Assembly: GCA_017520845.1 (NCBI GenBank)
Contig: JAFXEU010000050.1
Span: 1 to 34,637 of the forward strand
Origin: Kiritimatiellia bacterium
GTDB lineage: Bacteria; Verrucomicrobiota; Kiritimatiellia; RFP12; UBA1067
Direction of reading: 5' to 3'
DNA: 34,637 bases
Below are positions 3,058 through 34,637 of this stretch, one piece after another. A program made the position numbers and the translations under genes. The first letter of the stretch is position 1, and each line of letters opens with the position of its first letter. Below the pieces are notes generated by a model, which worked only from the letters and a program-made list of their open reading frames with translations, ran no database searches and was not told the DNA's origin.

Positions 3058-3510
3058 ATGTGTGAAATTGATGATATGGTTGGTCTTGATAATCTCGAAT
3101 CGACAGACTGTATTGACGAAACTCCATTAGGATGTTCATCCGATACATTATTAAGGTCCAATGAGCCTATGGCAACTGAAAGTCTACTTGTCGATTCAGG
3201 GGTGGACACAATGATAGATTTCTCGTCACCGAAAGGTGATGCGGGTGCATCTCATACAATTAGCTTTGGCGCAAATTTGGATGTAGATAAATACAATGAA
3301 TTAGCGAGGCAAAAAGCAGAGGCGAATACTGTCCTTAAAGAAACCAGTAGTGACACTGAATTTCTTGATGCTTTCAAGCGAAGAGAAGATGCTCAAAAGG
3401 AGGTGAATGAAATGCTATCAAATTCCGATGAGTTTAAGAACTGGAGCGATACCATTGATCGCAAGATAGATGCCTGCCTTGATCCATTGAGAAGAAATGG
3501 AATTCTTTAA
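3058..3510 (+). CDS. Small acidic hypothetical protein, first gene of the GTPase island
   Basis: 150 residues from ATG 3058, preceded by AAAGGAAGGAA (3042-3052). I do not recognise a family. The first 80 residues are acidic and rich in Ser/Thr/Asp (start M-C-E-I-D-D-M-V-G-L), probably disordered. The second half (about 90-145) is charged and helical, rich in Lys/Glu, with a likely coiled coil. No signal peptide or membrane segment. It starts a run of nine same-strand genes; the next starts 52 nt downstream and encodes another acidic protein, suggesting paired small adaptor- or substrate-like proteins. Function unknown. Confidence 0.7.
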   Translation: MCEIDDMVGLDNLESTDCIDETPLGCSSDTLLRSNEPMATESLLVDSGVDTMIDFSSPKGDAGASHTISFGANLDVDKYNELARQKAEANTVLKETSSDTEFLDAFKRREDAQKEVNEMLSNSDEFKNWSDTIDRKIDACLDPLRRNGIL

Positions 3511-3562
3511 TGAGCATGCACCTCTATATAGACAGATTGTAAAAACAAAAAAGGAAATCAAG

Positions 3563-3952
3563 ATGAATGAGATTTTTGATGATGATCTCTCGGCATCGAT
3601 GGAAGCCGGAAAGCAGATGTCTTCAGATGCTGATGTTGTAGCCACACCTGAAGAAGACCCGATAGTAGGTAGCGCATCAGATGGTTTGTTGCAAGATGAC
3701 GCCCTTTTAGCAGCAGTCTCGCCTGAATCGGATTTCTCTGCTGAAGATTCTGCAAGTAGCCAGAATGCCGGACAAGACATGGGTGACAGGGTAAGAGCCG
3801 AAAATGATCAAAATGGCGATGGCCATAATGTGAGCTTTCGTGGTTCAATGCACCATTTTTACTGTCCAGTTTGTGGGCATACATGGTATGCTCCAGGATG
3901 GCCATCTTATTGCGAGAAATCTGGGTGTCTTGGACATCCTAAGGAACTCTAA
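3563..3952 (+). CDS. Acidic protein with C-terminal zinc ribbon
   Basis: 129 residues from ATG 3563, chosen because AAGGAAA (3551-3557) lies just upstream. The frame is open to an ATG at 3497, but that start overlaps the previous gene and has no good ribosome-binding site. Residues 1-85 are acidic and low in complexity (E-D-D, D-A-D, S-A-E-D-S runs), likely disordered. The C-terminus, about residues 98-129, is a compact zinc ribbon: C-P-V-C-G-H-T-W-Y ... Y-C-E-K-S-G-C, four cysteines as C-x2-C and C-x4-C. The same ribbon is present as an orphan fragment at 2939-3031. A short ribbon on an acidic tail suggests a binding or recruitment role, but no function is known. Confidence 0.7.
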   Translation: MNEIFDDDLSASMEAGKQMSSDADVVATPEEDPIVGSASDGLLQDDALLAAVSPESDFSAEDSASSQNAGQDMGDRVRAENDQNGDGHNVSFRGSMHHFYCPVCGHTWYAPGWPSYCEKSGCLGHPKEL

Positions 3953-3982
3953 GGAGCGCGTAACCTCAAGGAGCAAGAAATC

Positions 3983-5245
3983 ATGGATCCATTTATCACA
4001 TACGCTGGGATTAACATTGTCAAGTCCATTGTTGACGGATTCCAACAAAACAAGCGAAGCCTTATTCAACAAAACTTTCAGCAGGCTGAAAATGAGGCGT
4101 CAAGAGCTGCACAAAGAGAAAACATCCTTTTGCAGTTACAAGCGCAAAGAGAACGCGACGCCCTATCATTTGAAAATCGTCTTTCTGAGCATGATTATCT
4201 ATCAACGATTCAGAATGTCTGGCCCTTGACAATACATCCAAGAGAGTACAGCAAACTTTTTCATCCCGACAAAGATGGTCGTGTGCCATTTAACATTCTT
4301 ATTGACAATCGCATACAAAGTCCTATGGGGTGTCTATGCGATTCCTTGTGGTCGGAACTGGCACATGGGTTGACTAATTGCTTTGGGGTAGATCGCCCAT
4401 ACCAGTTTAATTCAAATGCATTCACAAAGGCCGCAAGTGTTGCTGGAATGGAAATTTCTCTTTTGCGCGAATATTCAGAGCATATCCCAACCCTTGTATT
4501 AGTACCGGTCTATACTGAGTCCGAATTGTGCCTAACGGCACATGCATGGGGGGGAGGGATGGGATATCAAACCGGAAGCATTACGATTCCAATATGGCAA
4601 TTGAGGATAGCAGAAGCACGTAAAATAGCTCATGATTATGTCACCCGTTTTGAAAAAGCAAAAAAAGCAGGATTAAAATTGCCATTTGATGCAAAGGTCT
4701 CGCAATATGTTGAAATGTTCCGACAAGAAAAGGAATTTCTTGATAAGGGTATGACTACAGAAGATTGTTCACGGTTAGACATCTATGAAAAATTAACAAT
4801 GATTCCACCCCCGAATGAAGTCAGTAAAATTGAGAAAGAGGTTTATAAAAATGTAGCTCATTTATTGGCTCATCAAATACTGCTCCCAGTTGGACAGATT
4901 GTAGATTCGTATTTCATAGAAGGATTTGGAATGGCACCTCGTTTGCCATTTGTCTTATCGGAGTCTGGAATTAATAAAACTGAAGGTGAAGAAATCATTT
5001 CTCGTTATGCTTTGTCGCTACTTTCCGACATGAAGAACGGGCAGAGTCTAGTTGGAGAAGATCAGCTGAATGAATTTAAGCGAAGTATTCGAGATGCTGG
5101 TTTCCAAGAGTTATACGGTAGTCCGGCGATAGCGCAACTTAATTACTCGGAAGTTAATTCAGAACCATCTTCCCCGCCGGTACCTGTTGTTGGCTGGACT
5201 AAAACAATCCCAACGAGCACTCCTACCCGTAGGCGATTTGTATGA
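3983..5245 (+). CDS. Island protein with N-terminal coiled coil, unknown function
   Basis: 420 residues from ATG 3983, with AAGGAG at 3968-3973. I do not recognise the family. Residues 1-20 are mildly hydrophobic (M-D-P-F-I-T-Y-A-G-I-N-I-V), possibly an amphipathic membrane-touching helix. About 20-75 is Gln/Glu/Arg-rich and should form a coiled coil. About 80-370 is a globular mixed region with an H-A-W-G-G-G-M-G-Y glycine loop near 190 and several helices. The last 30 residues are Pro/Ser/Thr-rich and end in R-R-R-F-V. It ends 16 nt before the first GTPase and so is very likely co-translated with it. It may act as a partner or scaffold for the GTPases; this is inferred only from position. 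Confidence 0.75.
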   Translation: MDPFITYAGINIVKSIVDGFQQNKRSLIQQNFQQAENEASRAAQRENILLQLQAQRERDALSFENRLSEHDYLSTIQNVWPLTIHPREYSKLFHPDKDGRVPFNILIDNRIQSPMGCLCDSLWSELAHGLTNCFGVDRPYQFNSNAFTKAASVAGMEISLLREYSEHIPTLVLVPVYTESELCLTAHAWGGGMGYQTGSITIPIWQLRIAEARKIAHDYVTRFEKAKKAGLKLPFDAKVSQYVEMFRQEKEFLDKGMTTEDCSRLDIYEKLTMIPPPNEVSKIEKEVYKNVAHLLAHQILLPVGQIVDSYFIEGFGMAPRLPFVLSESGINKTEGEEIISRYALSLLSDMKNGQSLVGEDQLNEFKRSIRDAGFQELYGSPAIAQLNYSEVNSEPSSPPVPVVGWTKTIPTSTPTRRRFV

Positions 5246-5261
5246 GAAAGGATCAGTCTCC

Positions 5262-6191
5262 ATGAAAGTAATGATGATTGGTTTAAGCAGAGCTGGAAAA
5301 ACATCGTACATGGGGGCGATGTATAAACGCTTTGAGGAGGGTATTGGAGGGTTCTCAATAAAAGCCATCAACAGCGAAGATGGACGGGCCTTGCAAAAAA
5401 TAGGAAATAATTTGTCGAAAGGCATTTATCCAGGGAACACAGATATTCGCTCTGAGTATAAATTCAAATTGCTCTATGAGAACTCAGAACTTATGGAGTT
5501 CGATTGGACAGATTACAGAGGCGGCTTGTTGGTTGATTTTAACAACGAAAAGGAACTCGACAAGTGGGAATGTGAGTTGCAAAGCGCAGACGCTGTTATC
5601 GCGTTCCTTGATTCTTCGGCGATGGATAGGCGGACATCCGTAAATAGGTACTCAGGTTTCTCGCAGATGGAGGCAATTTCAGACCTAATAACGAGGGTCG
5701 CCAGTTCTCATAGCGATAACGAGGCGTTTCCAATTTCATTTGTGATGACCAAAATAGATGCGCTTAAGGACAACAAGATCGAGGGCGATGAGTGGGAACA
5801 ATTGGGCGAACTTATGAAAGATGTCGCATCTTCCAAGAATATTCATGGTATGTTAACGGGTACTGTTGTTGGGAAAGAGTGTCTTAACATTGAATGGCCC
5901 TTCCTCATGTCTATGGTTTTTGGTTTGAAAGGTAAAATCGCTAGAGTTTGTGCTGAAGCAGATGCCTTAAAAGACAGAGTTAATGACTGTATTGAAAACA
6001 CAAGTATTTGGGATGATATTTCTAGTTGGTGGAATGACGAGCCGTCATATCGTTCGATTGCGTATGATAATGCTGTCGAACTCCAGAAAAAGGTCAACAG
6101 GCTTATGGCTTTAAGTACACCAACAGACTTGCTAATTGATCTGCTGAAAAAGGTCTCGGCGGATGAAGATTTCTTCATGCATCTTTTTTAA
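5262..6191 (+). CDS. P-loop GTPase, first of a pair
   Basis: 309 residues from ATG 5262. The frame is open to 5187 inside the previous gene, but M-K-V-M-M-I-G is the natural beta-1 start and AAAGGA (5247-5252) fits. Walker A/G1 G-L-S-R-A-G-K-T is at residues 7-14; a possible switch I Thr at 60; G3 D-Y-R-G at 84-87; G4 T-K-I-D at 163-166. This is the order of a TRAFAC-type small GTPase. About 110 residues follow, mostly helical and charged, probably an interaction region. No membrane segment. A second GTPase with the same N-terminus follows after 15 nt. The pairing recalls the DO-GTPase1/DO-GTPase2 double-GTPase families described in bacterial conflict systems (from memory; not searched). Confidence 0.85.
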   Translation: MKVMMIGLSRAGKTSYMGAMYKRFEEGIGGFSIKAINSEDGRALQKIGNNLSKGIYPGNTDIRSEYKFKLLYENSELMEFDWTDYRGGLLVDFNNEKELDKWECELQSADAVIAFLDSSAMDRRTSVNRYSGFSQMEAISDLITRVASSHSDNEAFPISFVMTKIDALKDNKIEGDEWEQLGELMKDVASSKNIHGMLTGTVVGKECLNIEWPFLMSMVFGLKGKIARVCAEADALKDRVNDCIENTSIWDDISSWWNDEPSYRSIAYDNAVELQKKVNRLMALSTPTDLLIDLLKKVSADEDFFMHLF

Positions 6192-6206
6192 ACAAGGAGA
6201 GTCAAA

Positions 6207-7256
6207 ATGATGAGAATAACCATGATGGGGTTTAGCAGGGCTGGCAAGACTTGCTACCTATATGCAATGGCTGCAAGAATGTCAAAAGGGCAATATGGTT
6301 TTAGATTCATACCTGACAACCATCGGAAGTCCTTGTCGTTGAATCGTTGTTGGAATGAAATGAAGCCGCAATTCAACCCAGACAATGGCACACTTGTCAG
6401 GCAAGGCGTTTGGCCTGCGGGAACAGGTGAATCTGATGAGATTGTGTTTAGGTTTGTATATGGGACTAGAAATCTGACATATTTTAGTTGGTATGATTAT
6501 AGAGGCGGTATATTAGATTCCGAATCAGAAAGCGATGAGAAAGATTACAATAAGTTTGTTGAGATCGCTTCAGAATCGGCATGTATCATTGTGTGTATTC
6601 CTGCAGAAATGTTACAGGCTTATATGCATGGTGACAGCATGGCCGAAAGCAGATTAAACATTATTCTTGATGATTTGACCAAATACAGAGAATCACGCAA
6701 TGATTATGTTCCCGTGACATTTGCTATTCTTAAAGCAGATCGTTTGGCGCCCGGGGAGTTCTCTCGCGGGGTAAAGGCTATTCGTGAAGGTGTGTTTGCG
6801 CCATTGTTTAGTCAGGACGAAAACTGGCTGTTGATGTTTGTTGGTGTTAGTCTCGGCAAGTTTGACCGTAACCAAGGAGATATTGATCCCAAAACGCATC
6901 GTCGTTTTATAAATGGTACATTAGAACCAGTTAATGTGGAACTCCCAGTGTTCTTTGCGTTTTATTGCAAACTTAAGGATGCTGTGCGAAGTAAGAATGA
7001 AGAAATGAATAAAAACGCAAACGCACAAGACATAGCAAAAGGTAAATTGCAGACATATAACTCACGTACAATATTTGGGCGATGGTGGCATGGGGATGAA
7101 GCAAAGGCTGCTAAAGCAGAATTGGAGGAGTTGGCTAAAGACAGTGGATTGATAGCTGCTGATTTGCAAAAACTTCAAGTTGACTTCTCTCATGTCACCG
7201 AGGCATTATTGGATGGAGGTTATGTCGAAATATGGAACAAGGGGGAGAAGTTATGA
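6207..7256 (+). CDS. P-loop GTPase, second of a pair
   Basis: 349 residues from ATG 6207, AAGGAGA at 6194-6200. G1 G-F-S-R-A-G-K-T is at residues 8-15, nearly identical to the first GTPase; G3 W-Y-D-Y-R-G-G has D-Y-R-G at 97-100. The G4 position reads L-K-A-D (175-178), not [N/T]-K-x-D, so guanine recognition may be altered. A helical Lys/Glu-rich C-terminal region spans about 250-345. The two proteins are paralogous but clearly diverged, which favours hetero-dimerisation or sequential action over recent duplication. The stop overlaps the next start (ATGA at 7253-7256), implying translational coupling to the Sel1 membrane protein. Confidence 0.85.
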   Translation: MMRITMMGFSRAGKTCYLYAMAARMSKGQYGFRFIPDNHRKSLSLNRCWNEMKPQFNPDNGTLVRQGVWPAGTGESDEIVFRFVYGTRNLTYFSWYDYRGGILDSESESDEKDYNKFVEIASESACIIVCIPAEMLQAYMHGDSMAESRLNIILDDLTKYRESRNDYVPVTFAILKADRLAPGEFSRGVKAIREGVFAPLFSQDENWLLMFVGVSLGKFDRNQGDIDPKTHRRFINGTLEPVNVELPVFFAFYCKLKDAVRSKNEEMNKNANAQDIAKGKLQTYNSRTIFGRWWHGDEAKAAKAELEELAKDSGLIAADLQKLQVDFSHVTEALLDGGYVEIWNKGEKL

Positions 7257-8590
7257 TTAGTTTTGAACCGCTGATCTATACACGAACTAAGAATGTTGAT
7301 TATCGTTTTGTAGCCACTCCACAGGCTCTTAAAGGTTCTCGATGCTGGGATTTTGTTGAACATCATATTAGAATGGTTCTTGCTGATGAAGGAAGCCGTG
7401 GCCCTCTATTGGGACGTAGGTGGCATATAATGAGTATTGATGGGTATTTACTTATAGGTATTGCCACATATGAGTTTGAGAGACTGGACTACACTGGATG
7501 TCCCATTAGGGGGTATTATGGTATATTGCTGAAGTCTGTTGTTGAGGTGATGCCTTCATTGGAACTGTTTAGACAACTTGATAGGACATTCGTCGATCCC
7601 ATTTTTAATGACATATATGCATCAGGAAGTACATGGGAAGATAATGTTGAAAGTATTGCATTTCTTGGACAAAATGGTAGCGTAAGCCATGAAAGCCCTA
7701 TCGATTTTAATCACGATGAAAAATGCGTAAGGTTTTTTGATGATTTTGTTATTGATAGCATTTTGCCGAAAGCTTATGATGAGGCGATTAGATGCGTAAA
7801 ACAGAAGCGAACTTTTGAATTTGTTTGGGGGCTGAGTAGTCGTTCTCACGCTAAAGAAGTTCCGTTCATGAATGTGGTTTGTCTTGAGATGAGAAATCAA
7901 GGTGGGCAGAAGGGTGTGCATATCGATAAAAACCTTTCCACGCCCTCTGATCAATCAAAGAACTTCTCTACGGCTAGTATGTCTACAATTGGTAATGCGG
8001 AAAATCTTACTGACGAAGTTGTAGGCAAAAATCAACGTGATACAAGCTTAAAGCATTTAATTGATCTTGCCAATTCGCCCAATACGTCTAATCCACCTCA
8101 AGGGCGTTGTGAGGATAAAAATAAACCCTGCATCAATGATACTGAAGAACAAAAAGCAAGAATTGAGCGTAGAAAGAAATTACTAGGCCTTGCTGATGCG
8201 CAGAATGTCACGGAATCTAAAACAAATGATGAACGGGCAATTTCTTTATATAAAATGGCATTAAATAGTTATCATGAAGGTGATTATAGTAATGCAGCAA
8301 AGCTGTTTAGACAAGCGTCGGACTGTGGTTTAGCAGATGCAACTGGCAAATTGGGTGAGTGTTATATGCGAGGTCATGGTGTAAAAAGGAATTGGAGAAA
8401 AGGATTAAGTTTGTTGCGCGAGGCGGCTATCAACGGATCTGAATTCGCAAAAGTATTGTTGAGATCCATAAAAAAGACGCTTGCTATTCTTGCTGTATTC
8501 ATAATATTGTGTCTTTCAATAGGCTTTATGTTTTGGCCTGATACCTCAAATGCTAGTGTGCCAAACAATCCTAACAATCCGACACCATGA
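7253..8590 (+). CDS. GTPase-associated protein with Sel1 repeats and C-terminal membrane anchor
   Basis: 445 residues from ATG 7253, with GGGGGAG at 7241-7247 and a 4-nt ATGA overlap with the GTPase gene. The first about 190 residues form a globular domain (G-R-R-W-H-I ... R-G-Y-Y-G-I-L-L). It is faintly reminiscent of the GAP1 N-terminal domains found next to conflict-system GTPases; this is low confidence. About 210-325 is a polar linker. About 330-400 holds two Sel1-like repeats (A-A-K-L-F-R-Q-A-S-D-C-G-L-A-D-A-T-G-K-L-G, then K-G-L-S-L-L-R-E-A-A). Near 410-428 is one hydrophobic helix (T-L-A-I-L-A-V-F-I-I-L-C-L), then a short polar tail, so it is a tail-anchored inner-membrane protein. 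It could be the membrane output or sensor of the island. Confidence 0.75.
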   Translation: MISFEPLIYTRTKNVDYRFVATPQALKGSRCWDFVEHHIRMVLADEGSRGPLLGRRWHIMSIDGYLLIGIATYEFERLDYTGCPIRGYYGILLKSVVEVMPSLELFRQLDRTFVDPIFNDIYASGSTWEDNVESIAFLGQNGSVSHESPIDFNHDEKCVRFFDDFVIDSILPKAYDEAIRCVKQKRTFEFVWGLSSRSHAKEVPFMNVVCLEMRNQGGQKGVHIDKNLSTPSDQSKNFSTASMSTIGNAENLTDEVVGKNQRDTSLKHLIDLANSPNTSNPPQGRCEDKNKPCINDTEEQKARIERRKKLLGLADAQNVTESKTNDERAISLYKMALNSYHEGDYSNAAKLFRQASDCGLADATGKLGECYMRGHGVKRNWRKGLSLLREAAINGSEFAKVLLRSIKKTLAILAVFIILCLSIGFMFWPDTSNASVPNNPNNPTP

Positions 8591-8604
8591 GGTAATTCGC
8601 CAAT

Positions 8605-9090
8605 ATGAAGATTCAATGTCTATCAAGAAAATGGTTTGAGACAATCAAGGGGACTGTGCTTGAGGAACAAGTATTGACTCACAATAAGATTGTGTCCATC
8701 CAGTCGCGAAGCGGATGGGATTCTGAACCGCCATTTTCTGACGAGGCATTGAAGTCTCCGAATCTACTTTGCCTCACATTCGACGATGTAACAGACTACT
8801 CGGAGTTATACGATGGAGAGAAGATAGCCAGATTCCGACCTGTTATGGCGCAAAAGATTCTGCGTCATGTTGGACATGGAACTTGGCCTGTCCTTATTCA
8901 CTGCACTGAGGGCGTTTCGCGTAGCGGTGCTGTCGCCAGTGTCCTTGATCACTACTGGAACTTTGTCTGGGACAAGAAGCCGGAAGATCACGAGTATTTC
9001 AAGCGCGTAAATCCAAAGATTTCTCCCAACCCAGTTGTGGAGGAGATTTTTATGGAATACATTGAAAATGGGTTCATGGATGAGCCGTAA
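8605..9090 (+). CDS. Cysteine-based (dual-specificity-like) protein phosphatase
   Basis: 161 residues. The signature H-C-T-E-G-V-S-R-S lies at residues 99-107, an exact HC-x5-R-[S/T] loop with nucleophile Cys100 and phosphate-binding Arg106, preceded by the hydrophobic strand P-V-L-I. An upstream Asp in T-F-D-D-V-T-D (58-64) could be the general acid. Length and layout fit the compact dual-specificity-like phosphatases common in phages and mobile DNA. It starts 14 nt after the Sel1-anchor gene with a weak ribosome-binding site, and its stop overlaps the next start (TAATG), so it belongs to the island's operon. The substrate is unknown; tyrosine or serine phosphate on an island protein, or a nucleotide or phospholipid, are all possible. 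Confidence 0.85.
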   Translation: MKIQCLSRKWFETIKGTVLEEQVLTHNKIVSIQSRSGWDSEPPFSDEALKSPNLLCLTFDDVTDYSELYDGEKIARFRPVMAQKILRHVGHGTWPVLIHCTEGVSRSGAVASVLDHYWNFVWDKKPEDHEYFKRVNPKISPNPVVEEIFMEYIENGFMDEP

Positions 9091-9647
9091 TGAGTGACAA
9101 CATGAAACAATGCGATTTATTCGCGTCGCAAGAGCGACAATCAGATGAAGTGCCTCCGCCGATTGGTGTGTACATGCCGATTCCACAAGAAGATCGAGCA
9201 CACCATTGGCTAACGAAAGAGCGACTTTTCTCTGAGATAGAGTTTTGTGATACAGTTTGTCCGATGCGAGAGAAGGACGGGACGCTTCATCTAATAGCGC
9301 AGGAATTGGAATCGGCGGATTTCGTTCCGAAGAACGGCACAGAGCAGATAATACAATTTGACGAAGACGAACAGCTTGTTTTATGGGAGGCATTCTGTCC
9401 TGACTGGCAAGTCGCTGATGTTCTGGCGGCATATCGTTTCGCGTCTGACTGGATGACACGCCATCCCAAAGATACAGTCATTGTAAATGAGAAATCACGA
9501 AGGATAGTGTGGCGTCGTTCGTTGGATACAGTGTGGGTTGACGAGCAGGACGATATGGAGGTTCTTTCGGATCGCTTTATTTACGATGGAATTAACGACT
9601 CAATAGAATGTCTCAATGCCGCACAGCTTGCGCTTGGCGGGTTTTGA
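9090..9647 (+). CDS. Hypothetical protein coupled to the phosphatase gene
   Basis: 185 residues; the ATG at 9090 shares its A with the phosphatase TAA (TAATG), so translation is coupled. No family recognised, no signal peptide, no membrane helix. The protein is acidic with many aromatic residues (H-H-W-L-T-K-E-R, L-W-E-A-F-C-P-D-W-Q-V). The central part, about 85-125, looks like a pair of helices. The tight coupling suggests it binds or regulates the phosphatase; this is inference from position only. Confidence 0.65.
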   Translation: MSDNMKQCDLFASQERQSDEVPPPIGVYMPIPQEDRAHHWLTKERLFSEIEFCDTVCPMREKDGTLHLIAQELESADFVPKNGTEQIIQFDEDEQLVLWEAFCPDWQVADVLAAYRFASDWMTRHPKDTVIVNEKSRRIVWRRSLDTVWVDEQDDMEVLSDRFIYDGINDSIECLNAAQLALGGF

Positions 9648-9718
9648 AATAGGGCTACGAAAAATAGTTGGGACAAATAGGTCAACGAGATTTTAAAAAC
9701 TAAAAGGAGATGAGAACA

Positions 9719-10741
9719 ATGAACTACAACAATGCCATGGCTACCACGCTATTTGTGGGTATGATTGCATTCAATGTAGATGCTACTAACTCAATCGGCA
9801 ATACCAATCATGACACGGATAAGACAAAAATCCAAACTGTGACTGTCGAAACAAAGAAACGATTGCGGCCCGGTGGCGACAGTGCTTCAAAAGAAACGAC
9901 GGAGATAGACATAAAGAGAGCTGAACGCTATCGCAAGGCGGCAGAGCAGGGAGATATCGAGGCATGTGAAATGCTTGGTTGGGAATATCAAGATAGTGAC
10001 AAGGCGGAAGCCGTGAAGTGGTGGTGCAGGGCTGGCAGTAGAGGATCGGATATGATGAAAGCCGTTCTTCGGCTTATGTATCACGGCGAAGAATGCGCAT
10101 TAATATATAACACGGCTGGTGACATGACGGCGACAGGAAGATGCCCATTGCCTGATTCAACCGATCCTCTTGCTTTTCGGGTGGAGTGCGGAAGAAGAGC
10201 CTATATTGACAAGTGGCTTGGGTTTTCAGAACCGAATTGGGAGCCATTTCCCACATTGGCGGCAGTCACGAATGCGACAGGTCTCAAACTCAACTTCGCG
10301 GAGAGGTTCGAGGCTTTAGTAAAAGGCAAGATGGGATTCTTTTCAGACGGAGGAATTCACTGGACGGAGGATGGCACGAACGGGCTTTCTTTCGCCGATA
10401 CGACAGTTAAGATTCGTGAGGCGCAACTTAAGTGCGTAAAGGAAATGATGTATGGTAGGACTATAGCAAATAAAGCCGGTACATCTTGGGTGCTCAACGA
10501 TGATTTTACATTCGGTTACATGCCTTGGCATGATATGGGGCGCAAAGATATGGAGTTGTATGTTTTTTCCATTCGCCATGAAATGAACGGCAAGCCTCCC
10601 AAAGCATGTGTACTTGTGTCATTCGCCCCAACGCAGTTAATGTCAGATTCAATCACAGGAGCATTTCTTGGCGATGAAACGGCAAAAGCAAACTTAAAGG
10701 CGTTGGAGAAAGCTGGTATAGTCACAATCATGGATGATTGA
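9719..10741 (+). CDS. Secreted Sel1-repeat protein, last gene of the island
   Basis: 340 residues from ATG 9719. AAGGAG (9704-9709) stands 9 nt upstream, whereas the in-frame ATG at 9710 directly abuts it, so 9719 is preferred. A signal peptide is likely (M-N-Y-N-N-A-M-A-T-T-L-F-V-G-M-I-A-F-N-V-D-A). Two Sel1-type helical repeats occupy about residues 68-125 (Y-R-K-A-A-E-Q-G-D-I-E-A-C-E-M-L-G-W-E-Y, then A-V-K-W-W-C-R-A-G). The remaining 210 residues are an unrecognised globular domain. Sel1 repeats mediate protein-protein contacts. This is the second Sel1 protein of the island, but on the far side of the membrane from the GTPases. The 71-nt gap before it may allow separate expression. Confidence 0.7.
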   Translation: MNYNNAMATTLFVGMIAFNVDATNSIGNTNHDTDKTKIQTVTVETKKRLRPGGDSASKETTEIDIKRAERYRKAAEQGDIEACEMLGWEYQDSDKAEAVKWWCRAGSRGSDMMKAVLRLMYHGEECALIYNTAGDMTATGRCPLPDSTDPLAFRVECGRRAYIDKWLGFSEPNWEPFPTLAAVTNATGLKLNFAERFEALVKGKMGFFSDGGIHWTEDGTNGLSFADTTVKIREAQLKCVKEMMYGRTIANKAGTSWVLNDDFTFGYMPWHDMGRKDMELYVFSIRHEMNGKPPKACVLVSFAPTQLMSDSITGAFLGDETAKANLKALEKAGIVTIMDD

Positions 10742-11096: not shown

Positions 11097-11130
11097 AATA
11101 GGTAGAGGGGACTGTCCCCATTGGCGATAA
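11097..11130 (+). repeat. REP-like palindromic repeat, copy B
   Basis: Identical over 33 nt to copy A (2468-2500), with palindrome GGGGACTGTCCCC at 11107-11119 and tail ATTGGCGATAA. Copies A and B flank the AT-rich GTPase island almost exactly, one on each side and in the same orientation. Confidence 0.8.
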
Positions 11131-11797: not shown

Positions 11798-12847
11798 TTA
11801 TGCGGCTTTGTTGTAGGCTGTGTCATATTCATAGGCGGTTTTTCCATCAAGTAGCTTTCTATGAATCGAGTTGATGATCTTTTCAAGATGGTGTATTTCT
11901 GCGGTTGTGCACTTTGCGAAATCGGTTCCTTTGGGATACCATCTGCGTACGAGCTTGTTGCAGTTTTCGACGGAGCCTTTTTCCCATGATGCATAAGCAC
12001 GCGTGTAGTAGACATTGCAACCTACAACGGACTTGATTTTATCTGGATCCAAAAATTCACAGCCGTTATCGGTTGTGATGGAGATTACATTACTAATAGC
12101 TTTTCGAGCAATCATCCGTTTAAGTGCGGCTACAACATCATCTTGTGTTACGTGTGCTAAAAGCTCAATTACGTAACGTCTACTCTTACGGTCAATGAGT
12201 ACAAGTAGACCTCCTCTACCGCTTGTAGATGAGACGATTGTGTCCATCTCATAATGGCCAAATCTGCTGCGTTTTTGGGCTCCTGCTGGACGATCATTGA
12301 GCATTAGTCGACCAGGAACGGTCATAGCTGGATGCGCTTTCGGTCGTTTCGGCTTTTTCTTTGGATGATAAGGCGTTTGACCGTACCTAACACCGACATC
12401 TCCAACGTTGATGTGTTTGTACCATGTCGAGAGGCATGGGATACGTTGGCCCGGCATTTCTTTCTTTATATGGCAGATCGCATCATATGGAGAGAGTTTT
12501 TCTTCAAGCACATGTTTCTTGAAGAGAAATGCCATTTTATTGGTTACAAGCATTTTCGTCCCTTTATTTTCGTTGTTCTCGTTAATTTTGTCTTGTGCGA
12601 CAAAAGGGTCGTATTCGCAGTATTTGCGTCGTCGTCTGTCTTTAGGGTCTGCAATCGCAAATCCCGTAGCTCCCCTTAGGTATTCCCGCCTCCATGTTTC
12701 GTATCGTAGACCATGCTTTGCGGCGAATTGTCGCAATGTTATCCGACATCCTGAATTGATAATCTTGTTCCAGTCAGCGGCAAGAATTTGTCTTTGCTCA
12801 AATGTTAGGTGTTTTCCTGGTACGTGTTGTGTGATATAATTTCTCAT
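11798..12847 (-). CDS. IS30-family transposase
   Basis: 349 residues from the ATG whose first base is 12847, chosen because AAAAAAGGA stands 6 nt upstream. A longer frame to 13024 adds 59 low-complexity Lys/Arg residues with no ribosome-binding site. The N-terminal helix-turn-helix region H-L-T-F-E-Q-R-Q-I-L-A ... F-A-A-K-H-G is typical of IS30. The DDE catalytic core is complete: first Asp in H-Y-E-M-D-T-I, second in T-T-D-N-G-C-E-F, and Glu in S-W-E-K-G-S-V-E-N-C-N. The full length matches family size, so the element may still be active. It cuts and joins DNA at the terminal inverted repeats. Confidence 0.95.
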   Translation of the reverse strand: MRNYITQHVPGKHLTFEQRQILAADWNKIINSGCRITLRQFAAKHGLRYETWRREYLRGATGFAIADPKDRRRRKYCEYDPFVAQDKINENNENKGTKMLVTNKMAFLFKKHVLEEKLSPYDAICHIKKEMPGQRIPCLSTWYKHINVGDVGVRYGQTPYHPKKKPKRPKAHPAMTVPGRLMLNDRPAGAQKRSRFGHYEMDTIVSSTSGRGGLLVLIDRKSRRYVIELLAHVTQDDVVAALKRMIARKAISNVISITTDNGCEFLDPDKIKSVVGCNVYYTRAYASWEKGSVENCNKLVRRWYPKGTDFAKCTTAEIHHLEKIINSIHRKLLDGKTAYEYDTAYNKAA

Positions 12848-12932
12848 GGCGTCCTTTTTTGTAGATGGGTGATTTTGTTTAGCAGCTTTCATCATACTAC
12901 AAATTGCGACGCCTTTGTTATTTTTTCGCGCG

Positions 12933-12950
12933 ACGCCCCCATGGGGGCGT
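12933..12950. other. 18-bp perfect palindrome inside the IS, upstream of the transposase
   Basis: ACGCCCCCATGGGGGCGT is fully self-complementary. It lies between the right end of the IS and the transposase start. On RNA entering from outside it would form a strong hairpin ahead of the transposase gene, as other insertion sequences do to stop read-through expression; that role is inferred. Confidence 0.5.
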
Positions 12951-13065
12951 TCCTTCCTTCGTTTTTCCTTCTTTTTTCGTTCTCTGTCTTTTTTCTTCAG
13001 AGCATCCTTTCGCCACCTCGACAACTTACCTTTCCGATTTGACTCATTTAATTGTACAACTTTCG

Positions 13066-13172
13066 GCGAACGCCGCGCTTTTATTTTATGCGTTAAAGTG
13101 GTATAATTGGCAACGATGATGGATGACTATAAAATCTCTGATAACTTCCAAGGAGTGGAAGGTGGTAAAATG
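13066..13172 (+). repeat. Leader element, copy 3 (left half), driving the L,D-transpeptidase gene
   Basis: Starts with the right 14-bp direct repeat GCGAACGCCGCGCT (13066-13079) of the IS insertion. It continues TTTATTTTATGCGTTAAAG, TGGTATAAT (TATAAT at 13102-13107, TTTTAT at 13079-13084 in the -35 position), a short frame MMDDYKISDNFQ from 13116, and a GGAGTGGAAGGTGG ribosome-binding stretch. Its final ATG (13170) is the start codon of the L,D-transpeptidase. The C-rich second half of the element is missing here but appears after the gene, at 13865-13925. Confidence 0.8.
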
Positions 13173-13883
13173 AAAAAAACGATTGCAATTGTAATCGGCC
13201 TGTTTGTCGCGGCGGCGGCGTTATTAGCAGGCGGTAAAGCGATTGCTAAAGTATCGAGGCACACTGTCGAAAGTCGTATTACTGCAATTCTCAAGAAGAA
13301 GCCTCATCTAAAAGAGGCTGCAAAAATCTCGGGCGGGAAGCTTAGAATACTGGTTTTCAAAAATGAGCGCCGCGTGGAGGTTCATGCTCCAGGATGGAAG
13401 ACTCCTCGTGAATATGCGATGACGGCTTTTAGTGGAACATTGGGGCCTAAATTGCGTGAAGGCGACTTGCAAATACCGGAGGGCGTATATGGAATCGCGT
13501 ACCTAAATCCCAATTCGAGATTTTATCTGTCTCTTAAGGTTTCGTATCCGAATGCGTCTGACAGGGCTCGGGCGAAGGCGGATAAGCGAGTAAATCTGGG
13601 CGGCGATATAATGCTCCACGGAAAGGCGGTGACGATAGGTTGCGTGCCGGTCGGTGATGATGCGATCGAGGATATATTTTATCTTGCGCATGCGGTAGGT
13701 ATACGGAACGTTTCGGTTATTATTGCGCCATACGATATGCGTAAAGGCCGCAATCCGGAACTGGAGCGCTCGCCGCTTAAGTGGTACCCGGATTTATGCC
13801 GCGAAATCTACATTGCTTTGTGCGGCGCGGCAAAGCTTTACGGACAAGACGATACGTTCAAAGAAAGAAGGGGCGTAAAATGA
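13170..13883 (+). CDS. Exported L,D-transpeptidase family protein (YkuD/YafK-like)
   Basis: 237 residues from ATG 13170. The frame is open to 13107 through the leader element, but M-K-K-T-I-A-I-V-I-G-L-F-V-A-A-A is a standard signal sequence. L,D-transpeptidases form 3-3 cross-links in peptidoglycan or attach proteins to it, working in the periplasm with a catalytic Cys. The signature is present: M-L-H-G-K-A-V-T-I-G-C-V-P, with His150 and Cys158. A preceding P-E-G-V-Y-G-I and N-P-N-S-R-F-Y-L-S-L-K-V-S-Y-P follow the YafK-type layout. The gene lies between the two halves of the leader element, and its stop codon is formed within the second half. Probably transcribed from the element's own promoter. 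Confidence 0.85.
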   Translation: MKKTIAIVIGLFVAAAALLAGGKAIAKVSRHTVESRITAILKKKPHLKEAAKISGGKLRILVFKNERRVEVHAPGWKTPREYAMTAFSGTLGPKLREGDLQIPEGVYGIAYLNPNSRFYLSLKVSYPNASDRARAKADKRVNLGGDIMLHGKAVTIGCVPVGDDAIEDIFYLAHAVGIRNVSVIIAPYDMRKGRNPELERSPLKWYPDLCREIYIALCGAAKLYGQDDTFKERRGVK

Positions 13884-34378: not shown

Positions 34379-34637
34379 TCAATGGCCTTCGCCGACAGCG
34401 TTTCGGATTTTAATAGCTTGGGGGACTGTCCCCATTGGCGATAATCCTATTTCGAATAACTCATGCGCTGTTTCATAGCAAATTGCGCGGCGTTCGTTCT
34501 CGGATAAGGGAAGTTTAAGAAACTCTGAAATAACAGCAGCAGGATCTTGCCACGGAGCATCTGTTCCAAATAGGATACGATTTGCTCCGTGCATTCGAAT
34601 CATCCTGAAAATCTGTTCGTTCGGCATCCAGAAAAAT
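34379..34637 (-). CDS. Amidohydrolase (Amidohydro_2) C-terminal part, partial, runs off right edge
   Basis: About 85 residues visible; the frame is open past the window's right end, so the internal ATG at 34627 is not a proven start. A-N-R-I-L-F-G-T-D-A-P-W is the hallmark of metal-dependent amidohydrolase-2 TIM barrels, where the Asp binds the catalytic metal. The helix L-S-E-N-E-R-R-A-I-C-Y-E-T-A-H-E-L-F is the usual C-terminal end. The last 20 or so codons (L-S-P-M-G-T-V-P-Q-A-I-K-I-R) are simply the translated REP copy D and its flank, so the natural C-terminus was replaced by repeat DNA. It is convergent with the beta-helix gene, 11 nt apart. Confidence 0.75.
   Translation of the reverse strand, partial: FFWMPNEQIFRMIRMHGANRILFGTDAPWQDPAAVISEFLKLPLSENERRAICYETAHELFEIGLSPMGTVPQAIKIRNAVGEGH
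34412..34445 (+). repeat. REP-like palindromic repeat, copy D
   Basis: AATAGCTTG then GGGGACTGTCCCC (34421-34433) and ATTGGCGATAAT. It overlaps the 3' end of the minus-strand amidohydrolase gene. Confidence 0.8.

Follow-up and report, generated by a model that had tools for sequence, protein, structure and literature searches.

Does the nine-gene island at positions 3058-10741 of contig JAFXEU010000050.1, from a gut-dwelling Kiritimatiellia bacterium (Verrucomicrobiota, assembly GCA_017520845.1), encode a single undescribed conflict or signalling system? The initial annotation had proposed this on the basis of two side-by-side GTPases, a phosphatase, a zinc-ribbon protein and Sel1 proteins. 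The window analyzed here is this entire contig (34,637 nucleotides) of a 2.74-Mb genome. The conserved core of the island consists of three genes, namely those for GTPase 1, GTPase 2 and a protein with a ~210-residue N-terminal domain that we designated as X (Table 1). This core is a rare, horizontally spread gene set, and the partnership between GTPase and X is conserved across many bacterial phyla. Our preferred reading, held with a confidence slightly above even, is a mobile switch of two GTPases, tethered to the membrane, controlled by a longin/TagF-like regulator and linked to output genes that vary. No description of the GTPase-X pair was found in the open-access literature, most subscription journals lying outside this coverage.

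GTPase 1 belongs to the DO-GTPase superfamily, not to a housekeeping family: it scores 40.0 bits with the Pfam profile DO-GTPase1 and 31.4 bits with DO-GTPase2 (cut-offs 27), and 48 of 52 homologues match DO-GTPase2 at E<=0.01 (25 of 52 match DO-GTPase1). GTPase 2 has no Pfam match of its own. It is 27% identical to GTPase 1 across 220 residues and 30-32% identical to cyanobacterial GTPase 2; it falls below the Pfam cut-offs but is a clear homologue. Both window GTPases contain W[TY]DYRGG in the Walker B region, and DYRG[GLS] or a near variant of it is present in nearly all 88 homologues; a canonical DO-GTPase from the same phylum has DWMGE in this region.

The IQ-TREE phylogeny places the window GTPase 1 inside a GTPase-1 clade with a support of 99/97, where it clusters with GTPase 1 of Bacteroidota and Thermoguttaceae (98/90); the window GTPase 2 clusters with GTPase 2 of Thermoguttaceae (95/85). 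On this tree, GTPase 1 and GTPase 2 form two distinct clades with good support, and they travel together. As each window GTPase groups with the matching Thermoguttaceae gene, the two were apparently transferred together between gut bacteria. Of 388 genomes searched in the phylum, one contained GTPase 2; of 115 in the family, one contained GTPase 1. The system is therefore accessory here. GTPase 1 had no match in viral or phage collections, and GTPase 2 had none in viral contigs. GTPases of ~680 aa located near a very diverged X (L166, L167) possibly represent a separate subfamily.

In the first plasmid match, from three cyanobacteria, GTPase 1 and GTPase 2 are accompanied by a gene matching the ~210 N-terminal residues of the sixth island gene. 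When genome contigs were screened with the GTPase-2 alignment, 63 loci emerged; they belong to cyanobacteria, Planctomycetota, Bacteroidota, Bacillota, Chloroflexota and Pseudomonadota. At 61 of the 67 loci found via the GTPase, an X gene is located on the same strand at a distance of no more than 400 nt. The median gap is 1 nt, and in 54 cases it is 60 nt or less. X is absent at four of the 67 loci, at three of which (L017, L026, L032) the GTPase is close to a contig end. Since this set had been found through the GTPase, a reciprocal search was run from the X side. In 293 genomes of one cyanobacterial order, the X profile gave 40 positive genomes (14%) with 41 X loci, and 36 of these loci have an adjacent GTPase on the same strand within 400 nt. 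At three further loci (L163, L166, L167) a GTPase is present within ~1.3 kb; at L165, a GTPase adjoins an X that is truncated where the contig ends, and at L156 the contig ends before any GTPase is visible.

The X domain itself matched no Pfam family (52 members, E<=1), and comparison with PDB sequences gave no convincing match. It is nearly always N-terminal, whereas the C terminus varies across members, often carrying a single or double membrane segment, but also a coiled coil, a BACON domain or, in the window, a Sel1 repeat and an anchor. The tail anchor predicted by the initial annotation for the protein at 7253-8590 is supported by its single C-terminal hydrophobic segment. The Sel1 assignment stood in part: matches exist, but they are weak, with one repeat in the same protein at 29 bits (cut-off 30.7) and 14.6 bits in the last island gene (9710-10741). 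A C-terminal -WF ending was observed in 27 of 972 open reading frames (ORFs) of related loci, all of them X, GTPase 1, Hsp70 or kinase genes of cyanobacterial systems (L005, L009, L010, L013, L018, L020, L022-L025, L032, L048). It usually follows a polar low-complexity tail, is absent from the window proteins and looks like a shared docking or sorting tag.

The genes around the core differ between lineages. Paired dynamins, an Hsp70/actin-fold ATPase and a C39 peptidase are found near it in Bacteroidales, Thermoguttaceae, Anabaena and Clostridia, a Ser/Thr kinase stands beside it in Pleurocapsales, and AAA ATPase, coiled-coil and Hsp70 genes adjoin it in Trichodesmium, Okeania, Nostoc and a marine Crocinitomicaceae. 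None of the nine island proteins matched these neighbour families, and neither dynamin nor Hsp70 was found at the window locus. A larger conserved set around the X-GTPase pair (L015, L031, L033, L040), comprising an AAA ATPase, a coiled-coil protein, Hsp70, a radical-SAM-type Fer4_12 protein and unassigned families, is present in filamentous cyanobacteria and in a marine Bacteroidota metagenome-assembled genome (MAG). One contig, L038, is labelled as belonging to an archaeal horse-faeces MAG; its locus is of the Bacteroidales/Clostridia type, and it is possibly misbinned.

What, then, is the status of the other six genes? A conserved nine-gene system was rejected because genes 1-3 and 7-9 lack homologues at related GTPase loci; the proposed co-localization holds for GTPase 1, GTPase 2 and the X domain, and fails for the remainder. 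No homologue of gene 1 (3058-3510) was found at these loci. The zinc-ribbon protein (gene 2, 3566-3952), which had been counted in the set, matched no family and has no homologue at any related locus. The 420-aa protein (gene 3, 3983-5245) has no Pfam match and no homologue in plasmids, in 289 phylum genomes or at related loci; its assignment as a diverged X, Hsp70 or dynamin was unsupported. The phosphatase, likewise included in the proposed set, is scattered: it is present in 13 of the 289 phylum genomes, and the genome to which the window belongs carries one further copy. In the genome G042, a phosphatase 88% identical to it directly follows a homologue of the last island gene (L107:6171-7976; 44% identity over 210 aa), and a GTPase-2 search of this genome found nothing. 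It follows that these genes move independently of the GTPases. The 185-aa protein coupled to the phosphatase (9090-9647) was found elsewhere only as a 61-residue fragment. Together, genes 7-9 (phosphatase, coupled protein, last Sel1 protein) resemble an add-on with a mobility of its own. Behind the phosphatase of G042 there is a methyltransferase and then an RNA ligase gene (L107:6171-10006), possibly an RNA-related module.

This distribution bears on the alternative that survives best, namely that the island is an insertion hot spot in which GTPase 1, GTPase 2 and X are the only functional unit and genes 1-3 and 7-9 are passengers. We give it not quite an even chance: it is in line with the co-occurrence of the phosphatase and the last-gene homologue without GTPases and with the lack of homologues of genes 1-3 and 8 at related loci, whereas the tight gaps and overlaps through all nine genes suggest one transcript.

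How X could act on the GTPases is suggested by its predicted fold. Two distant members were modelled with AlphaFold2, for the most part from shared alignment rows, and both models are confident, with a predicted local distance difference test (pLDDT) score of 85.6 (window) and 92.0 (cyanobacterial). TagF, a regulator of type VI secretion, from two species (E 2.5e-4 and 1.8e-3) gave the only PDB matches of the cyanobacterial model with E<0.01, and TagF was also the top PDB match of the window model; the Foldseek E values for TagF (9t0n) were 4.9e-3 for the window model and 2.5e-4 for the cyanobacterial one. With VIA-align, a Lokiarchaeota longin domain (Z 7.7 and 6.6) and TagF (Z 7.3 and 6.5) were at the top for both models. 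They were followed by FLCN, FNIP, GATOR1/SEA, DENND10 and SNARE longins, with Z of about 5-6 for FLCN, GATOR1 and DENND10. MglB and Ragulator were among the matches of the cyanobacterial model, and many longin/Roadblock chains appeared at lower Z. Longin, DENN and Roadblock domains are GTPase regulators (PMC3521125, PMC10933270). A longin-type fold is credible because one superfamily of GTPase regulators recurs in the models of two distant members. Membership of X in the TagF family or the longin superfamily is not established; going by the models, the pair may work like a longin- or TagF-regulated GTPase.

At the sequence level, when X was compared profile against profile with 14 TagF proteins, D-F, W and D-x-x-G-R aligned in the expected order. 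TagF_N (PF09867) matched none of the 52 X domains at E<=1, and the TagF profile fails to find X proteins. Homology of X to TagF by sequence was rejected, as the register is as expected but the scores are not significant.

Among known systems, the DO-GTPase/GAP1 systems (Kaur et al. 2020, PMC7159879; PF19975, PF19993) are closest in their GTPases, which belong to the same superfamily and often occur as two paralogues (in 38% of systems, a feature also present in the window). They too are mobile, and the genes next to them vary, with Hsp70, kinase or phosphatase among them. However, the Walker B motif of DO-GTPases has a conserved glutamate (PMC7159879, the text of which does not give its exact position) that is replaced here by DYRGG. 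Furthermore, the published systems are defined by GAP1 and said to be nearly absent from cyanobacteria, whereas here X occupies the place of GAP1, dynamins are frequent, and the core is present in 40 of the 293 genomes of one cyanobacterial order. GAP1-N2 is absent from the whole genome, and no island protein matched GAP1. The interpretation of X as GAP1-N was rejected as well, as no GAP1 match was found among 52 X domains at E<=1, and a GASH or FNIII companion had no Pfam match among the nine island proteins. Two defining features of the published systems, GAP1 and the Walker-B glutamate, are thus missing here.

A second parallel is TssM-TagF of the type VI secretion system (T6SS), TagF being the best solved structural match to X. 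In all 11 annotated plasmid records, retrieved with small flanks, that extend upstream of tagF, and at L115, tagF comes directly after tssM, with PP2C next in most of them, and this order is analogous to that of GTPase and X. TssM has a P-loop domain in its N-terminal part, and a PP2C phosphatase and a kinase are nearby. Unlike TssM, the GTPases studied here are stand-alone proteins, and no T6SS genes were found among the Pfam-scanned neighbours of X loci. The third parallel, the longin/DENN/Roadblock regulators (MglB, Ragulator, FLCN-FNIP, GATOR1; PMC3521125), resembles X in the predicted fold, and a GTPase is the partner of these regulators as it would be of X; longin SNAREs share membrane anchoring with X proteins. 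Here the differences are the lack of a sequence match (with Z of 5-7.7), the bacterial origin, and GTPases of the DO type rather than Rab, Rag or MglA.

According to the preferred switch reading, GTPase 1 and GTPase 2 would probably form a heterodimer, and the X protein (7253-8590) would be the dedicated partner of both, held at the membrane by its C-terminal anchor. X would probably bind the GTPases and set their nucleotide state as a GTPase-activating protein (GAP), a guanine nucleotide exchange factor (GEF) or a scaffold, in analogy to longin, Roadblock and DENN proteins acting on small GTPases and possibly to TssM-TagF. The GTPase state would then control the output by the variable neighbours. 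In gut Bacteroidales and Planctomycetota these would be dynamins, an Hsp70-type ATPase and a C39 peptidase; in cyanobacteria, a kinase, AAA or Hsp70 protein; and in the window, possibly the 420-aa and small proteins.

Several points weigh against this proposal. Two or more GTPases are present at 17 of the 67 loci, and many loci have a single one, so that a heterodimer is not universal. GTPase 2, with LKAD instead of TKxD, could bind the nucleotide differently. All Z values are below 8, and the tool itself warns that such values can be background reflecting a common fold arrangement. The profile-profile comparison of X and TagF was not significant, as 6 of 200 and 71 of 200 column shuffles (for two X alignments) reach the local score. 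Finally, the reciprocal X search covered one cyanobacterial order only.

A broader claim would be a widespread undescribed class of bacterial switches: a longin-like protein anchored in the membrane would regulate DO-type GTPases and would share its origin with T6SS TagF and possibly with the eukaryotic longin/DENN regulators of Rab and Rag. We put this forward as a tentative and rather doubtful idea. If X were a true longin-type GTPase partner, it would be a bacterial, operon-linked counterpart to regulators usually discussed in archaea and eukaryotes. It would also offer a testable idea for the action of TagF on TssM in type VI secretion and widen the known range of DO-GTPase systems to include cyanobacteria and gut bacteria, where a new regulator would replace GAP1.

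Two other functions have to be weighed against the switch as we read it. The island could be a conflict system against phages or other invaders, as predicted for DO-GTPases, with the switch sensing the invader and releasing effectors encoded by the island-specific genes. We regard this as possible but less likely than not: the superfamily membership, the sporadic low-GC (guanine plus cytosine) island with its rare GTPase 2, the variable neighbours as in Kaur et al. 2020, and the occurrence on plasmids and in multicellular cyanobacteria are consistent with it, but PADLOC models gave no credible match for the nine island proteins, the core has no recognised toxin or nuclease and no GAP1, viral collections contained no match, and the work of Kaur et al. 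(PMC7159879) is itself a prediction. It is also less likely than not that the core is a membrane or cytoskeleton module unrelated to defence, comparable to MglA-MglB or dynamin remodelling, in which GTPase-X would place dynamin and Hsp70-like ATPases at the membrane: dynamin pairs, Hsp70/actin-fold ATPases and kinases adjoin the core in several phyla, and X has membrane anchors and a fold like that of membrane-GTPase regulators, but in every clade the core is uncommon (14% in one cyanobacterial order), unlike a housekeeping module, and the window locus is without a dynamin or Hsp70 match.

Table 1. Genes of the island in the window
Feature	Position	Strand	Observations
Gene 1: small acidic protein, 150 aa	3058..3510	+	ORF; system membership unproven
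Gene 2: small acidic protein, C terminus zinc-ribbon-like CxxC...CxxxxC	3566..3952 (alternative start 3497)	+	ORF; membership unproven
Gene 3: 420-aa protein, N-terminal region coiled-coil	3983..5245	+	ORF; 16-nt gap upstream of GTPase 1
GTPase 1 (core), DO-GTPase superfamily	5262..6191	+	GLSRAGKT P-loop, DYRGG, TKID
GTPase 2 (core), diverged paralogue	6207..7256	+	GFSRAGKT P-loop, DYRGG, LKAD replacing TKxD
Core partner protein: ~210-aa N-terminal X domain, one Sel1 repeat, C-terminal membrane anchor	7253..8590	+	X profile 109 bits
Dual-specificity-type phosphatase, HCTEGVSR	8605..9090	+	DSPc-like under cut-off; phrog_5614; probably separate accessory gene
185-aa protein, translationally coupled to phosphatase (TAATG)	9090..9647	+	ORF
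Last island gene: probably secreted protein, weak Sel1 match	9710..10741	+	Probably travels with phosphatase

The nine plus-strand ORFs were verified at these positions, and their gaps and overlaps agree with the initial annotation, as do the motifs that it had described (GLSRAGKT/GFSRAGKT, DYRGG in both GTPases, HCTEGVSR, and CPVC...C....C in the second small protein). The ORF of the sixth gene is listed from 7232; the start is probably 7253, where an ATG gives the ATGA overlap and the N terminus of the relatives. The island had been described as poorer in GC than both flanks. This is true on the left (40-45% in the island, 50-67% in the left flank); the contrast is sharp on that side only, because the right 3 kb (transposase region) is also low in GC (44-47%, rising beyond).

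The island is bordered on either side by repeat families that recur on many other contigs of this genome, and it therefore belongs to the host genome. The flanking direct repeats were rejected as att sites, as they belong to repeat families with about 22-23 copies genome-wide. The palindromic repeat GGGGACTGTCCCCATTGGCGATA is located at 2478-2500, 11107-11129 and 34421-34443, with 22 copies in the genome at <=2 mismatches (zero for the reversed control). A 111-bp leader with a TATAAT-like box is present at 2776-2886 and 13066-13173 and has ~23 full or partial copies in the genome, the island being positioned behind one of them. Directly downstream of the island, an insertion sequence-type transposase with an rve integrase core is encoded at 11798-13024.

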